Origin: Medicago truncatula
Lineage: Eukaryota; Streptophyta; Magnoliopsida; Fabales; Fabaceae
Direction: 5' to 3'
DNA: 64,000 nucleotides
Assembly: GCF_003473485.1 (NCBI RefSeq)
Contig: NC_053042.1
Span: forward strand, 1,438,501 to 1,502,500
A program made the translations under genes and the position numbers. Below the pieces are notes generated by a model. That model saw nothing but the letters and a program-made list of their open reading frames with translations, ran no database searches and was not told the origin of the DNA. Within the stretch, counting starts at the first letter, position 1, and each line of letters opens with the position of its first letter. Of this stretch, positions 4,490 through 64,000 are shown piece by piece.

Positions 4490-7400
4490 TTTCCAAATAT
4501 AAAATGCATAAATTGTTGAACAATCTTATTAGAATACCACGGGCTGCTAGTTGCATCCTTGGTCAAAGGGGAACAAGAATCGAATTTGAAGTGTGTAGCA
4601 TTGTTGTCCTAACGCATTTCATTTGTGTTTGGTTTTGTTGTGGTTTGTTTCTAACTTGACTTCCAACTCATTCTCCTATTGGTTTTGGCTATAACTGGAT
4701 GACGTGGGTCATGCTAAGTTGCTAACTTTTCATGAATCCCATTCACATAAAAACACCTATAATAGAATACTGTCCATTCAAATTCATGCAATTATAGCTG
4801 TGGGCCATTGATCTATTATATCCTCTATCATAAAGTGTATGAAATTATTGGTCCTTATATCGACTGTGTATCTGAAACAATTGATATAAAAAATCCAATT
4901 TGCCAATTCAATCATGCTTTGTTGCTAATATAATATGATTCGCCAATTATGCATCAAACATTATCTAAGAGTAACTTATTTAAATGGTTGGAAATTAAAT
5001 GAGAGCTGTCGGTCTAACATTGACTAGCAAAGATGTGATTGTATAATACCTTAATGAAGATATATTTCGCATACCTTTTGGAAGTTTTATTAATCAATTG
5101 CTGCTTTGGATGCTCTCTTAGACTCACCATCAGATTACACCATCTGCGGAAATTAGGAAGGATTTCTAATTTTGTACCATGACTCCATGAGTACTAAATT
5201 TAACATCGAGAAATTCTTATAAGATTTCCTCAACATTTTTTTTATAAATAATTAAGATTGAATTAGATATGTATAATTGATTCGCACTAGACGTCAATCA
5301 ATTATGCATATTTATCTTCTTAAGTTTCCTAAATATCCAGTTACCTTTTTTTTAAGTTTTTTTTTTTTTGAAGGAACCTTTTTTTTAAGTTTGTTTTCAC
5401 TTGAACTTTTTTACGCAATATTATTTTCATTTATTTACCAAAATGTGATGGTAATGTTGTTTTTACTTGAACTTGGTTTGTTTTTTACTCCCTCTTCGAC
5501 ATATTTTCACCTTTCGGGTGACGAAGGGAGCAACGAGAGAGGTGATAAGAAATTGATAGCCAATGGAGTCAAAGTTTGATTTCGTGGTTAAGGTGCTGTG
5601 GAGGAGTTAAGGATTTGGGAGACCAGTGCAGTGGTGAGAGGTTTTGTTTTGAGGAAATTATTCAGTCAAAGAGGTTGTAGAAAATGTTTAACGCCGCTGA
5701 TGGGTACCTTATTTCTGGCCTCAAAATAGAGATTAGGAAACACAGAAAATCCAAATATTTGTTGACTGAACAAAATATACACATAAATTTAAAGGTATCA
5801 ACTCTCACCACCACATAACTAGTCTAAACTTATACAAAAAATGTATTGTTTTCCTTGATCAAGTACAAAGAGCATTTTCCCTCATCTAAATTTTTATCAT
5901 ATGAAATAAACAAGAGATATCATTTTGACACACAAAATTGATGTTGTATTTGACATCCGAATAAAATACACTATAAGTTACTGCGTTTTTCTTCATTTGA
6001 GATAAGAGAAAATAACGAGTTATAGGTCCACTACTCTGAGAAATTGCTCTTTGAGCCTCTACTTGCTCACAGACCCCTCAAAATTCAAAAATCACCATTT
6101 ACATATCTATCAGATGGGATCAGAAGATATCTTTTGGTCGCTAGGTATTGAAAGATATGCTACAATCTATTACAGAATAACACCAGAACATGAACCTCAT
6201 TTTGATATATGTGACACTTGATTTAAAATATCAAAACATTGATTTCTTTACATCCAAACAATGCGTGTGCCGTTTAATCCCTAGAAAGGATCATAAGACA
6301 CCAGATACGCACAAGACATTCTTGGATTGGACAATGGTGGATGATCATATCTTTTCTCCATATGATGATCATAGTCAGACGCGCTTGTTAAAGGACATAT
6401 GTTGGTTCTCTAGGTGTATCAGGTGAGGTCATCGTATGATTTTTCTCATTTGTTTGAGTGCGTGCTCAGACAATATGGTCATGTTTAGAACATCCCTACA
6501 CAAAAATATTGTCTAATCATGTCCACATTGCCTAAGCAGGCGCTCTAGCAATCGAAATGTTTATCATATATGATTTTATTTTCATTTTGTTAATGAACAT
6601 AAAATATTGTCATCATTAGTCTATGTGCCATTGTGTATGAAATGGTACACCAAAACTGTTTACAAAGTTGAATTATGTCTATGTTTTCATGCAAAAAATG
6701 AATTATGTCAATGTGCCAAATTTTAATTTTGTCAAAACCAGTTCAACCCAATAAAAAATTATCGTCTGGTTGCATCAAAAATCATCTTTCGATGTATATG
6801 TCTTAGGGTTCATAAGCATTGGAAGTTTTGATGTACCTGAAAGTTGCATACCATTGAAAGATCCCTTATAATCCATGTTTTTTTCTTTTCTTTTTTATAT
6901 CCATAAGAAATTATCTTTGATGTGATCGATTTAAAACAAGGGCATTTTTGCGGAGACCGTGAGCAACTAAGAGAGCCTATCGAGCAATTCCCAGTACTCT
7001 ATTTTCGGTACTCTCCCGCCCAAATCAAACATGATCCCCAGTTCCATCTAGAAACCCAACCCAATTTCAAAATGAACGTAACATATATTTGGTTTCAATT
7101 TTGGAAGGTAAAAAATATTTCTAATGATGTATTAGGGTGCATGATAATTTAAAGAATAATTGATTCTATTCGAAGTTGGAATTTGTAACTTTTAACTTTT
7201 ACAATCGATTTAAACTTAAATTTATCATTAAATCTCCTTTTACATAATCAACTCATTTTTACCCGAAATCAATTTTCATTGATTAGTTTATTCAAAATCA
7301 ATTGACTGAAGAGACAAACATATAGACAAAAACTGAGGTAATAATATTTTTGGTTCTTGAAGATTCAATGAATAATCTTTAATGTATAGAAATTTCAAAA

Positions 7401-59319: not shown

Positions 59320-59330
59320 GTCCCACATCG
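59320..59330 (+). promoter_or_regulatory. Upstream sequence element (USE) of the U1 snRNA gene
   Basis: The sequence GTCCCACATCG is an exact match to the plant snRNA USE consensus RTCCCACATCG. It ends 34 bp before the TATA box; that spacing is the one used by RNA polymerase II snRNA genes in plants. Confidence 0.92.
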
Positions 59331-59364
59331 ACAATATCAAACAGAGCGGTGAGGAAAGTGGGAT

Positions 59365-59372: not shown

Positions 59373-59395
59373 AAAGGGTATGGCATTGGATTAAA

Positions 59396-59553
59396 TACTT
59401 ACCTGGATGGGGTCAATGGGTGATCAAGAAGGCCCATGGCCTAGAAAGGTGACTTCCATTGCACTTAGGAGGGGTGCCTTTCTAAGGTCTACCCAAGTGG
59501 TGGAGCCTACATCATAATTTGTTGCTGTGGGGGCCTGCGTTCGCGCGGCCCCC
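59396..59553 (+). ncRNA. U1: U1 spliceosomal snRNA
   Basis: The RNA begins ATACTTACCTG, the segment that pairs with 5' splice sites. Loop I carries GATCAAGAAGG (U1-70K site) and loop II carries ATTGCAC (U1A site). A stem is formed by tagaaagg and cctttcta, a perfect pair even though these bases differ from the Arabidopsis U1 that I remember, which suggests compensatory change. An Sm-type site (AATTTGTTG) is followed by the terminal stem-loop ggggcctgcgttcgcgcggc. The length is about 158 bases, normal for plant U1. With intact promoter elements and a 3' box it is probably a transcribed gene. Confidence 0.95.
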
Positions 59554-59555
59554 TT

Positions 59556-60514: not shown

Positions 60515-61074
60515 TATTTCAAACCTAAATCTTTTTTTTTTGAACAAGTTCAAACCTAAATCTTAAAATTAAACTTTAGGTTTTTTCAAAAAAAAAAAAA
60601 TTAAACTTTAGGTGAAACACATCAATTAGGTCATACACAGAAGTTTAAGTGATGGCAGAGGAAGAAAAACTCAATTTCTACAAAAATTCTACATCCCTTC
60701 CACAACAAAAATAATATATGATTATCAAAAGGAAGAAAAATTAGTCTTACAGTACTAAAAATTACTTCATGTTTCTGATATAGTAGATGATCTTTTTGAT
60801 TTGATGAATGAATTGGGTTATTTGACTATTTTTTATATAGCAGAATTTTATTTGTCAAATAAGACTGCGGAATTTTGCTGATGCGGAATTGTGTACCAAA
60901 TACCATTCGGCAGAATTTTTGTTAATGCAGAATCTTTCTTTGTATTTACCAAGAGTTTGAGCATTGAAAATAATGTACTTCTGCTGTTATGTATAATAAC
61001 AATGAAGAAAATTACACTCCAATGGCAATAAACGAAGAGTTTGCTCTCAATTACATATAACCATGGCAAAGCAA

Positions 61075-61262
61075 TGCTAGGGACACTCTCATTTCAACAC
61101 TCTCTAACACTCACTCTCTTATTGGATTAAACTAGTGTATGTTTCATCACTTTAAGTGGAACCTATTTCCAATGTGTGAGACCCACCTTGATTTAAACAA
61201 ATAATGAGGTGAGTGTTTGAGAGTGTTGACAAGAGAGTGTTGACAAGAGAGTGTTGCTAGCA
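61075..61262. mobile_element. MITE, aacactcac family
   Basis: The left arm (tgctagggacactctcattt, then caacactctctaacactcac) pairs with the right arm (gtgagtgtttgagagtgttg...gagagtgttgctag). The right arm has gained tandem copies of gacaagagagtgtt. It is related to 38653-38831. Confidence 0.65.
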
Positions 61263-61611
61263 CTACTCAACCATGGTATATAACTTATATCAAACCAATA
61301 TCACAATACAAACTATCACAACACAGAATACAATCCCAATGAACATCATTACAATATAAAATAGAACTTGATTGCAATATAATGTTGTGAATCAAATCAT
61401 AAATTTAAAATAGAAATTACAATTGTTTTTGCAAACTACATTACTTATACTATCTACAAGTATGACTATTCTAGTTGAAATGTATTTCTTCTTCACTTTG
61501 TTTGCTACTTTAAAATAGTAATCAAACTCAAAATGTCCTATCCCATTGTGCTTCTTCTCCCACTTTGCTTCTTTAGTGTACTACCAATAGCAAGTTCATA
61601 TTACAAACACA

Positions 61612-62295: not shown

Positions 62296-62419
62296 GGGTT
62301 TTGCTAGAAGCCACCCATGAATGTGTCTTTTAGCAACCCACACCTCAAGGTGTGATTTCCACTTTTTAGTTATAGCTTTTCTAAAAGACACCTTCATAAA
62401 AGGTGTCTTCTAGCAAAAC

Positions 62420-62420
<1 letters not shown>
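62296..62420. mobile_element. Small MITE inserted in a TA microsatellite
   Basis: The ends agggttttgctagaagccac and gtgtcttctagcaaaaccc are inverted repeats, with an inner inverted pair around aaaagacacctt and aaggtgt. (TA)n lies on both sides, fitting a TA-targeting element. Confidence 0.6.

Positions 62421-62482
<62 letters not shown>
62421..62482. repeat. TA microsatellite, about 31 units
   Basis: An uninterrupted run of alternating T and A directly follows the MITE and directly precedes the 3' end of snoRNA copy 1. Confidence 0.95.
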
Positions 62483-62484
<2 letters not shown>

Positions 62485-62575
62485 CAATGGAATCAGAGAA
62501 CTTTGAAGGCATGTATGAAACAAGAGATCTACATCAGTTTCAGACAAAAATTTGCTTCATCATTTTGCTTTGCTG
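62483..62575 (-). ncRNA. Box C/D snoRNA, copy 1
   Basis: On the minus strand: 5' stem agcaaagcaa, box C ATGATGA (62557-62563), box D' CTGA (62540-62543), box D CTGA (62493-62496), 3' stem ttccattgct. The 13 bases before box D (ccttcaaagttct) are complementary to agaactttgaagg, which I recall as a conserved part of plant 25S rRNA. By the box D + 5 rule the methylated base would be the C of AGAAC. Its 3' stem matches less well than that of copy 3. Confidence 0.75.
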
Positions 62576-63202
62576 ATTGAAAACTTTGCAGGCACCTAAT
62601 AGTGTGCGTTAATGCAACTTGATCGCCCAACTTAGTCCTCAAGAAAAAATGGAAGTATATTTTCATAAATTAAGGGACCAAGTTGTGTTAACTTACATAA
62701 GTTATGACTAAATTGATCAGTTTTAACTTGTACATGGTGCAAGACCAACTTAATTGTGCGTGTTAGACAAAGCCTTGTAAAGAATATCCCTCACTAGAAA
62801 AGTAGGATTATAATCCCAAATGTCAAGCCCAGTTTTACTTCACTTGTCATAAATACAAATAAAGCATGATAAAACTAGAGCAAATTTTTTGCTGCACCAT
62901 GCTCGTGTAATCTGACAGATTAATGCAACATCAGACTAAGAAATTTGGTGCCTACATTCATTTTTAAAACAACTCGATCCTTTACTTTATCTTACATATT
63001 AGAACCCAAACCTTGCATAATACATCAAATTCAAATCAACTTGGTAAATGATATGTGAAAATAACTAAATTCTAACCAATAATAACAAGGATGAAACCTT
63101 TGATTAGTTAAACATGTAAACATAATTAATCTTTCCCAAAAAGCTCAAGCAGTTCATAAAAGAACTCAAAAAGTGGTAAATTACAGTTGCTAATAGAAAA
63201 CC

Positions 63203-63290
63203 AGCAAAGCAATCAGAGAACTTTGAAGACCATTTCAATAAGGAATCCACATGATATTCAGATCTTAAAACCTCATAATTTTGCTCTGCT
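63203..63290 (-). ncRNA. Box C/D snoRNA, copy 2 (degenerate box C)
   Basis: On the minus strand: 5' stem agcagagcaaa, box C-like ATTATGA (63273-63279), D' CTGA (63258-63261), box D CTGA (63213-63216), 3' stem ttgctttgct. The guide cttcaaagttct next to box D is kept although the rest has diverged from copies 1 and 3. The imperfect box C makes it a possible pseudogene. Confidence 0.6.
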
Positions 63291-63452
63291 TTCAACAAAA
63301 AACAAAAGACACGACACGACGCATTTTATAAAGACTTAACATCAACTAAAATAACAGGTATACATATTAGATCAAGACAATGTCACAAACCAATATAACT
63401 ATAAAAACAAAACGAGCTGAAAATTTACGTAAAAAAAATAAAATAGAAATTA

Positions 63453-63473
63453 AAACCCTAAAACTATATAAAG
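63453..63473. promoter_or_regulatory. Telo-box and TATA-like motif between snoRNA copies 2 and 3
   Basis: AAACCCTAA (63453-63461) is followed by TATATAAAG (63465-63473). Telo-boxes are common in promoters of plant snoRNA and ribosomal protein genes. The TATA reads best on the plus strand, opposite to the snoRNAs, so its role is uncertain. Confidence 0.3.
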
Positions 63474-63521
63474 GGGGACACAAATAAAAGGTTGAATGAA
63501 ACAATCAAAATATATAAAACT

Positions 63522-63617
63522 AAGCAAAGCTATCAGAGAACTTTGAAGGTATGTATGAAACAAGAGATCCACATCAATTTCAGACAAAAAAAATTACTTC
63601 ATCATTTAGCTTTGCTA
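63522..63617 (-). ncRNA. Box C/D snoRNA, copy 3
   Basis: On the minus strand: 5' stem gcaaagcta (63607-63615), box C ATGATGA (63599-63605), D' CTGA (63580-63583), guide ccttcaaagttct, box D CTGA (63533-63536), 3' stem tagctttgc (63524-63532). The terminal stem is a perfect 9-bp pair. All parts of a box C/D snoRNA are in order with usual spacing and size (about 96 bases). This is the best of the three copies and the most likely to be functional as a 2'-O-methylation guide for 25S rRNA. Confidence 0.82.
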
Positions 63618-63867
63618 GTTGAAATGAAAAATTCATTTATCTGCAAAATCCATTGTACTATATGACATATTCACCGAGATAATTTGGCAATTTTTTTATA
63701 AAATAAATAATAATATGCATAATGGGTTATAAAAAAAACTCAGATCTACACCCAAAAGCATGAAATTAAATTGCCATGACTAAATATTGCACCTATAAAA
63801 CCTTCTCGTAATTTCCTTGACATTAAACTTTAAGATGCAAGGGGCTACGTGGTGCATCATGATTGAA

Positions 63868-63911
63868 AACAATGAATGAAAATACTACCAGAGGTTGCAA
63901 AGGATCAAAAA
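63868..63911. repeat. Direct repeat, copy 2
   Basis: It matches 60471-60514 with three substitutions. The right edge of the window cuts off what follows, so the extent of the duplication cannot be judged. Confidence 0.7.
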
Positions 63912-64000
63912 CAACTATGGGAATGGTTTCACAGGTCTATACAAAAAAAAAAAAAAAAAAAAAAATCAAACCTAAATCTTAAAATCAGAGTTTAGAGTAG

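Follow-up and report, generated by a model that had tools for sequence, protein, structure and literature searches.

Copies of the box C/D snoRNA snoR160 in a partly decayed tandem array of Medicago truncatula, with a guide predicted for a known 25S rRNA methylation site

In Arabidopsis, C1479 of 25S rRNA is a methylated residue mapped by RiboMeth-seq, and SnoR147 is assigned as its guide in Table 1 of PMC8053127. PMC11542601 places this residue in helix 47 of domain III and lists a counterpart, Cm1480, for tomato and tobacco, with the human and yeast columns empty. C1447, A1459 and G1460 of Arabidopsis 25S rRNA are guided by U24. In rice, snoR147a is described as lying together with snoR44 and snoR17. 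The box C/D snoRNA snoR160 is held in Rfam as RF00203, with a curated gathering score of 42 bits. The same name is used in PMC7464842 for a putative H/ACA RNA aimed at U2855, and this different RNA was the only one found in the literature under the name snoR160. Amongst the matches listed for literature on Medicago snoRNA clusters, none was noticed that concerns the array described below, which is weak evidence.

In the current study, a stretch of 64,000 nucleotides of M. truncatula (C1:1438501-1502500, hereafter the window) was compared in full with Rfam. RF00203 scores above its cut-off three times, and the only other match above an Rfam cut-off is a U1 snRNA gene. The genomic copies of RF00203 sort by sequence, as assigned by eye, into types A, B and C, and the window holds one of each. 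The features are given below, with E-values for the whole 64 kb.

62483..62569, minus strand: snoR160 copy, type C (copy 1 of the initial annotation), RF00203 57.9 bits, E 1.7e-07
62497..62508, minus strand: D-side guide CTTCAAAGTTCT of copy C, with box D CTGA at 62493-62496
62557..62563, minus strand: box C ATGATGA of copy C
63208..63285, minus strand: snoR160 copy, type B (copy 2 of the initial annotation), RF00203 72.8 bits, E 4.2e-11
63217..63228, minus strand: D-side guide of copy B, with box D CTGA at 63213-63216
63273..63279, minus strand: mutated box C ATTATGA of copy B
63528..63611, minus strand: snoR160 copy, type A (copy 3 of the initial annotation), RF00203 61.1 bits, E 2.8e-08
63537..63548, minus strand: D-side guide of copy A, with box D CTGA at 63533-63536
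63599..63605, minus strand: box C ATGATGA of copy A
62483..64000, minus strand: portion of the array inside the window, continuing beyond the window end to about C1:1509840

The initial annotation, made from the letters of the window alone, had described three minus-strand units with boxes C, D' and D, terminal stems and a 12-nt D-side guide, and had placed them in the box C/D class. These elements are all present, each unit exceeds the RF00203 cut-off, and the Rfam comparison assigns the units to snoR160. The perfect stem noted for copy 3 was found as a terminal stem of 10 bp in the type A copy, the boxes of which are intact. The damage noted in box C of copy 2 is also real; the window copy reads ATTATGA, and ATGATGA is present in the other three genomic copies of type B. 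By kink-turn rules, this G-to-T change presumably affects a base of a sheared G-A pair, and protein binding should suffer. The type C copy has a terminal stem with two mismatches, and a TA repeat adjoins its 3' side. Guide and box D together (16 nt) show no difference amongst the three window copies. The further statement that everything else has drifted holds for the middle copy only; copies 1 and 3 (types C and A) have in common an ungapped stretch of 81 nt with 89% identity.

In the TA repeat just behind copy C there is a MITE-like element (window approximately 62296-62421) with inverted ends GGGTTTTGCTAGAAGACACC / GGTGGCTTCTAGCAAAACCC, at which a match to MIR5267 scores 44.2, below the cut-off of 87. 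An inverted repeat at 61060-61277, with arms of 59-64 nt that are 75% complementary, looks like another MITE. The U1 snRNA gene (59395-59555, plus strand) is a full-length Rfam match of 149.9 bits. Upstream of it are TATATAA, near 59364, and GTCCCACATCG, a plant USE-like element at 59320-59330.

A genome search covering the 430-Mb assembly in 42 contigs, in which counts for large families are lower bounds, recovered at least 14 matches to RF00203, every one above the cut-off. Twelve scoring copies lie on C1, from 1500983 to 1509840, on one strand and within 8.9 kb; C5 carries two, one of type A and one of type B. The description of a three-copy group is thus accurate for the window and otherwise an effect of its edge, since the window ends inside the array and only three of the 12 copies could be seen. 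Along the array the types follow one another mostly as A, B, C, the succession being interrupted at decayed copies. In what follows, L009 denotes the C1 stretch (L009 position + 61500 = window position) and L011 the C5 stretch. The unit at L009 8708 looks recombinant, having a C-like interior followed downstream by A-like sequence. A model derived from the 14 copies identified two decayed copies, L009 5204-5289 (35.0 bits) and L009 7352-7411 (32.6 bits); a possible third, at approximately L009 6210-6290, was recognized by eye and from the end of a B-unit remnant in an alignment, and was not reported by the model. Amongst 41 rows of the model search, 19 with E <1e-4 were counted, namely the 14 copies, the three window copies a second time and the two decayed copies. 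The next-best match, window 5021-5107 on the plus strand (21.2 bits, E 0.035), was set aside as chance. In the 30 kb scanned here, no Rfam family other than snoR160 was found at gathering scores.

Self-comparison reveals long stretches common to the units. The 30 longest measure 226-1493 nt and are 83-93% identical, spacers included, and shorter ones fall to 69%. The array thus grew by block duplication, in agreement with the local duplication proposed in the initial annotation. The window units terminate a longer series of neighbouring copies, part intact and part decaying.

The target of the guide was read from a 25S-like fragment in a chimeric IMG/VR contig, L013, where it reads CTTGGTGGTAGTAGCAAATATTCAAATGAGAACTTTGAAGGCCGAAG. 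The fragment was found with a pattern of 30 letters and is presumably of fungal 25S type. L013 gave no Rfam match at gathering score. A scan of viral contigs in IMG/VR returned two records, L012 and L013, both with the 30 letters of the 25S-like piece; in the part of L013 that was read, the piece is flanked by unlike sequences, and the contig is probably an assembly chimera. With this fragment, from another organism and taken as 25S, all 14 copies form 13-16 contiguous pairs when G-U is allowed: 13 or 14 in type A, 14 in type C and 16, with G-U, in type B. The guide pairs with AGAACUUUGAAG, so that the fifth base before box D (D+5) stands opposite the C of AGAAC. The U24-guided C1447, A1459 and G1460 fall on matching letters of the fragment (C at 0, A at +12, G at +13); counted from C1447, the predicted C is at +32 and hence at 1479. 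As the C at 0 is near the edge of the 25S-like piece, this register depends on three letters and on the U24 pairing, and both the naming of the fragment as 25S and its register are provisional. The initial annotation knew of no methylation site at the predicted C and suggested an undescribed or lineage-specific guide. Neither is supported: by the count from the U24 sites, the residue is Arabidopsis 25S C1479, a mapped Cm, and the family is that held in Rfam as snoR160, with the target Cm also listed for tomato and tobacco. As judged from pairing and register, the guide very probably directs one already mapped 25S mark, the equivalent of Cm1479.

The target letters occur in a legume RNA, AAUGAGAACUUUGAAGGCCGAA, a small RNA of soybean that PMC4498749 lists as a microRNA. 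This RNA would most simply be a 25S fragment. Soybean-miR-4 and miR-64, in Table 1 of the same paper, are made of letters of the 25S-like fragment and may therefore be rRNA pieces, not microRNAs. In the M. truncatula assembly, a 19-mer of the presumed target had 0 exact matches. Of the 34 contigs C9-C42, 20 were read over their first 10 kb, and motifs revealed no rDNA there; further scans for 25S were likewise negative.

We hold with good confidence that the window units are three of 14 copies of known snoR160, guiding the equivalent of 25S C1479 and belonging to a tandem-duplicated array, and we infer transcription, processing and methylation in this plant along the following lines. Each working copy would be released from a longer transcript and would fold into the usual snoRNP by means of the terminal stem together with boxes C and D. 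The D-side guide CUUCAAAGUUCU would pair with AGAACUUUGAAGGC of 25S rRNA, over 13-16 contiguous pairs according to type, and fibrillarin would methylate the C that faces the D+5 base, the counterpart of Arabidopsis 25S C1479. The array grew as a block with types A, B and C was duplicated in tandem; some copies are kept, and others lack box C, box D or more extensive portions.

Thirteen of the 14 copies have the same 12-nt guide; the C5 B copy has a single change, which retains a G-U pair. Comparison between types, from which gapped cells were dropped together with any column where the reference A copy has a gap, reveals guide differences in 10/768 comparisons, compared with 10/448 for box C, 10/256 for box D', 26/256 for box D, 261/1536 for the terminal stem and 1262/3168 for unassigned positions. 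For the window copies alone the values are 0/36 in the guide and 59/148 at unassigned positions. The guide is fixed though the types differ at 40% of unassigned positions, so recent duplication alone is not enough; at the level of sequence comparison, this constancy supports selection on the guide, as the initial annotation had proposed. Box D is less constant than the guide owing to altered letters in three copies (ATGA, CTAA and CCGA), which counts against a strong reading of selection. Gene conversion or recent duplication amongst neighbours could also keep a guide constant, and both the high identity of the 30 longest shared stretches, spacers included, and the recombinant appearance of the unit at L009 8708 are of the kind that such processes would leave. 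Conversion would nevertheless have to stop at the edges of the guide each time to yield the between-type counts given above, and the guide is in upper case, that is, strongly conserved, in the Rfam RF00203 consensus; this explanation of the constancy is very improbable. Scarcely credible is the proposal that the units are orphan snoRNAs guiding some other RNA, with a coincidental match to 25S. The pairing is known here from the L013 fragment and not from the source plant's own 25S, which leaves room for such a proposal, but within 5.4 kb of rRNA a 12-mer would match exactly by plain chance with a probability of about 3e-4, and the D+5 base coincides with a mapped Cm.

How many copies work is a separate matter, and a largely dead array, in which all the work falls to one or two copies, on C1 or on C5, and the three in the window are relics or weakly expressed, is a real possibility, held at somewhat less than even confidence and compatible with the assignment to snoR160 and its 25S target. 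Five of the 14 copies, including one window copy, are altered in box C, box D or the guide, and the two decayed copies are additional to these. Box C (RUGAUGA) and box D (CUGA) are both intact in 10 of the 14, including A and C in the window and excluding B. In folding against shuffles, the window copies gave z -2.82 for A, z -1.9 for B and z 0.31 for C, the last no better than shuffles. With the box C mutation in B and the weak stem of C, perhaps only the A copy works in the window. Against a largely dead array, nine of the 14 copies retain both boxes and the full guide, and the guide is nearly constant across strongly diverged types. Over the 14 copies, the terminal stem is paired in 134/140 cells (95.7%), compared with 29-56% when slid by 1-3 columns; the percentage is not exceptional, being reached by 118/500 shuffles. 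Covariation was rejected as proof of the stem, with one two-sided change in one cell and the same reached by 143/500 shuffles; the stem varies too little for any such claim. The D'-side spacers of A and C are rich in U, and the spacers are unlike between types, so that no common second guide is seen, as judged by eye.

Two further segments of the block were considered as candidate RNAs. A hairpin of H/ACA-like layout lies between the B and C copies (window approximately 62890-62952, minus strand; L011 4605-4672). The C5 copy folds better than shuffles (z -3.82); its foot measures 6 bp, its pocket is two-sided and its ACA, as counted by eye, lies 15 nt below the upper stem. The window copy reads AGCA. 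Upstream of the A copies, a segment that is well kept in the four compared (window approximately 63710-63868, minus strand; L011 5410-5569) includes a leader hairpin with z -3.1 against shuffles in the C5 copy. Conservation is higher in this hairpin (0.92-0.98) than in the stretch behind (0.62-0.88); the B-C candidate is kept no better than the stretch around it. In the consensus folds, none of the 36 pairs of the leader (four copies) and none of the 49 pairs of the B-C spacer (five copies) has a two-sided change that keeps the pair. The longer C5 segments (z -2.24 and -1.2) are not outstanding amongst 32 neighbouring 160-nt L011 windows (z -7.59 to 2.04). It is unlikely that the block is a mixed polycistron in which the three snoR160 types are joined by an undescribed RNA of H/ACA type, located between B and C, and that the plant keeps an unusually high dose of one guide for one plant-listed helix 47 methylation. 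No clear plant snoRNA promoter was found: telo-box and site II matches are few, scattered and inconsistently placed on C1, and there is no match in 10 kb at C5. A sigma-70-type promoter scan was set aside as not applicable to a plant.

The feature is real and largely ordinary, a known snoRNA family with very probably a known site. The analysis supplies the family assignment that the initial annotation had missed, and ties the guide to a 25S mark listed for Arabidopsis, tomato and tobacco in PMC11542601, with its human and yeast columns empty. The 12-copy array in mixed decay is a fair natural case of the birth and death of guide RNAs, with a fixed guide in otherwise changing copies, and raises no new question on its own.

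Amongst the described systems, the snoR160 of PMC7464842 is like the present units in name only and is not the RF00203 family. The rice snoR147a cluster differs in its composition, snoR160 being the only family recovered at Rfam gathering scores in the 30 kb scanned here. As to RF00203 itself, all 14 copies match the model over its full length and have the same boxes and the same 3' guide. They differ in degree, with the C1 B copies scoring highest (81.6, 78.6 and 72.8 bits) and the A and C copies, at 47.9-64.7 bits, diverging more on the D' side. With Arabidopsis SnoR147 the units have the same predicted target base, D+5 being 25S C1479 on the L013 count. Set side by side by this target base alone, snoR160 and SnoR147 are likely to be one family under two names.
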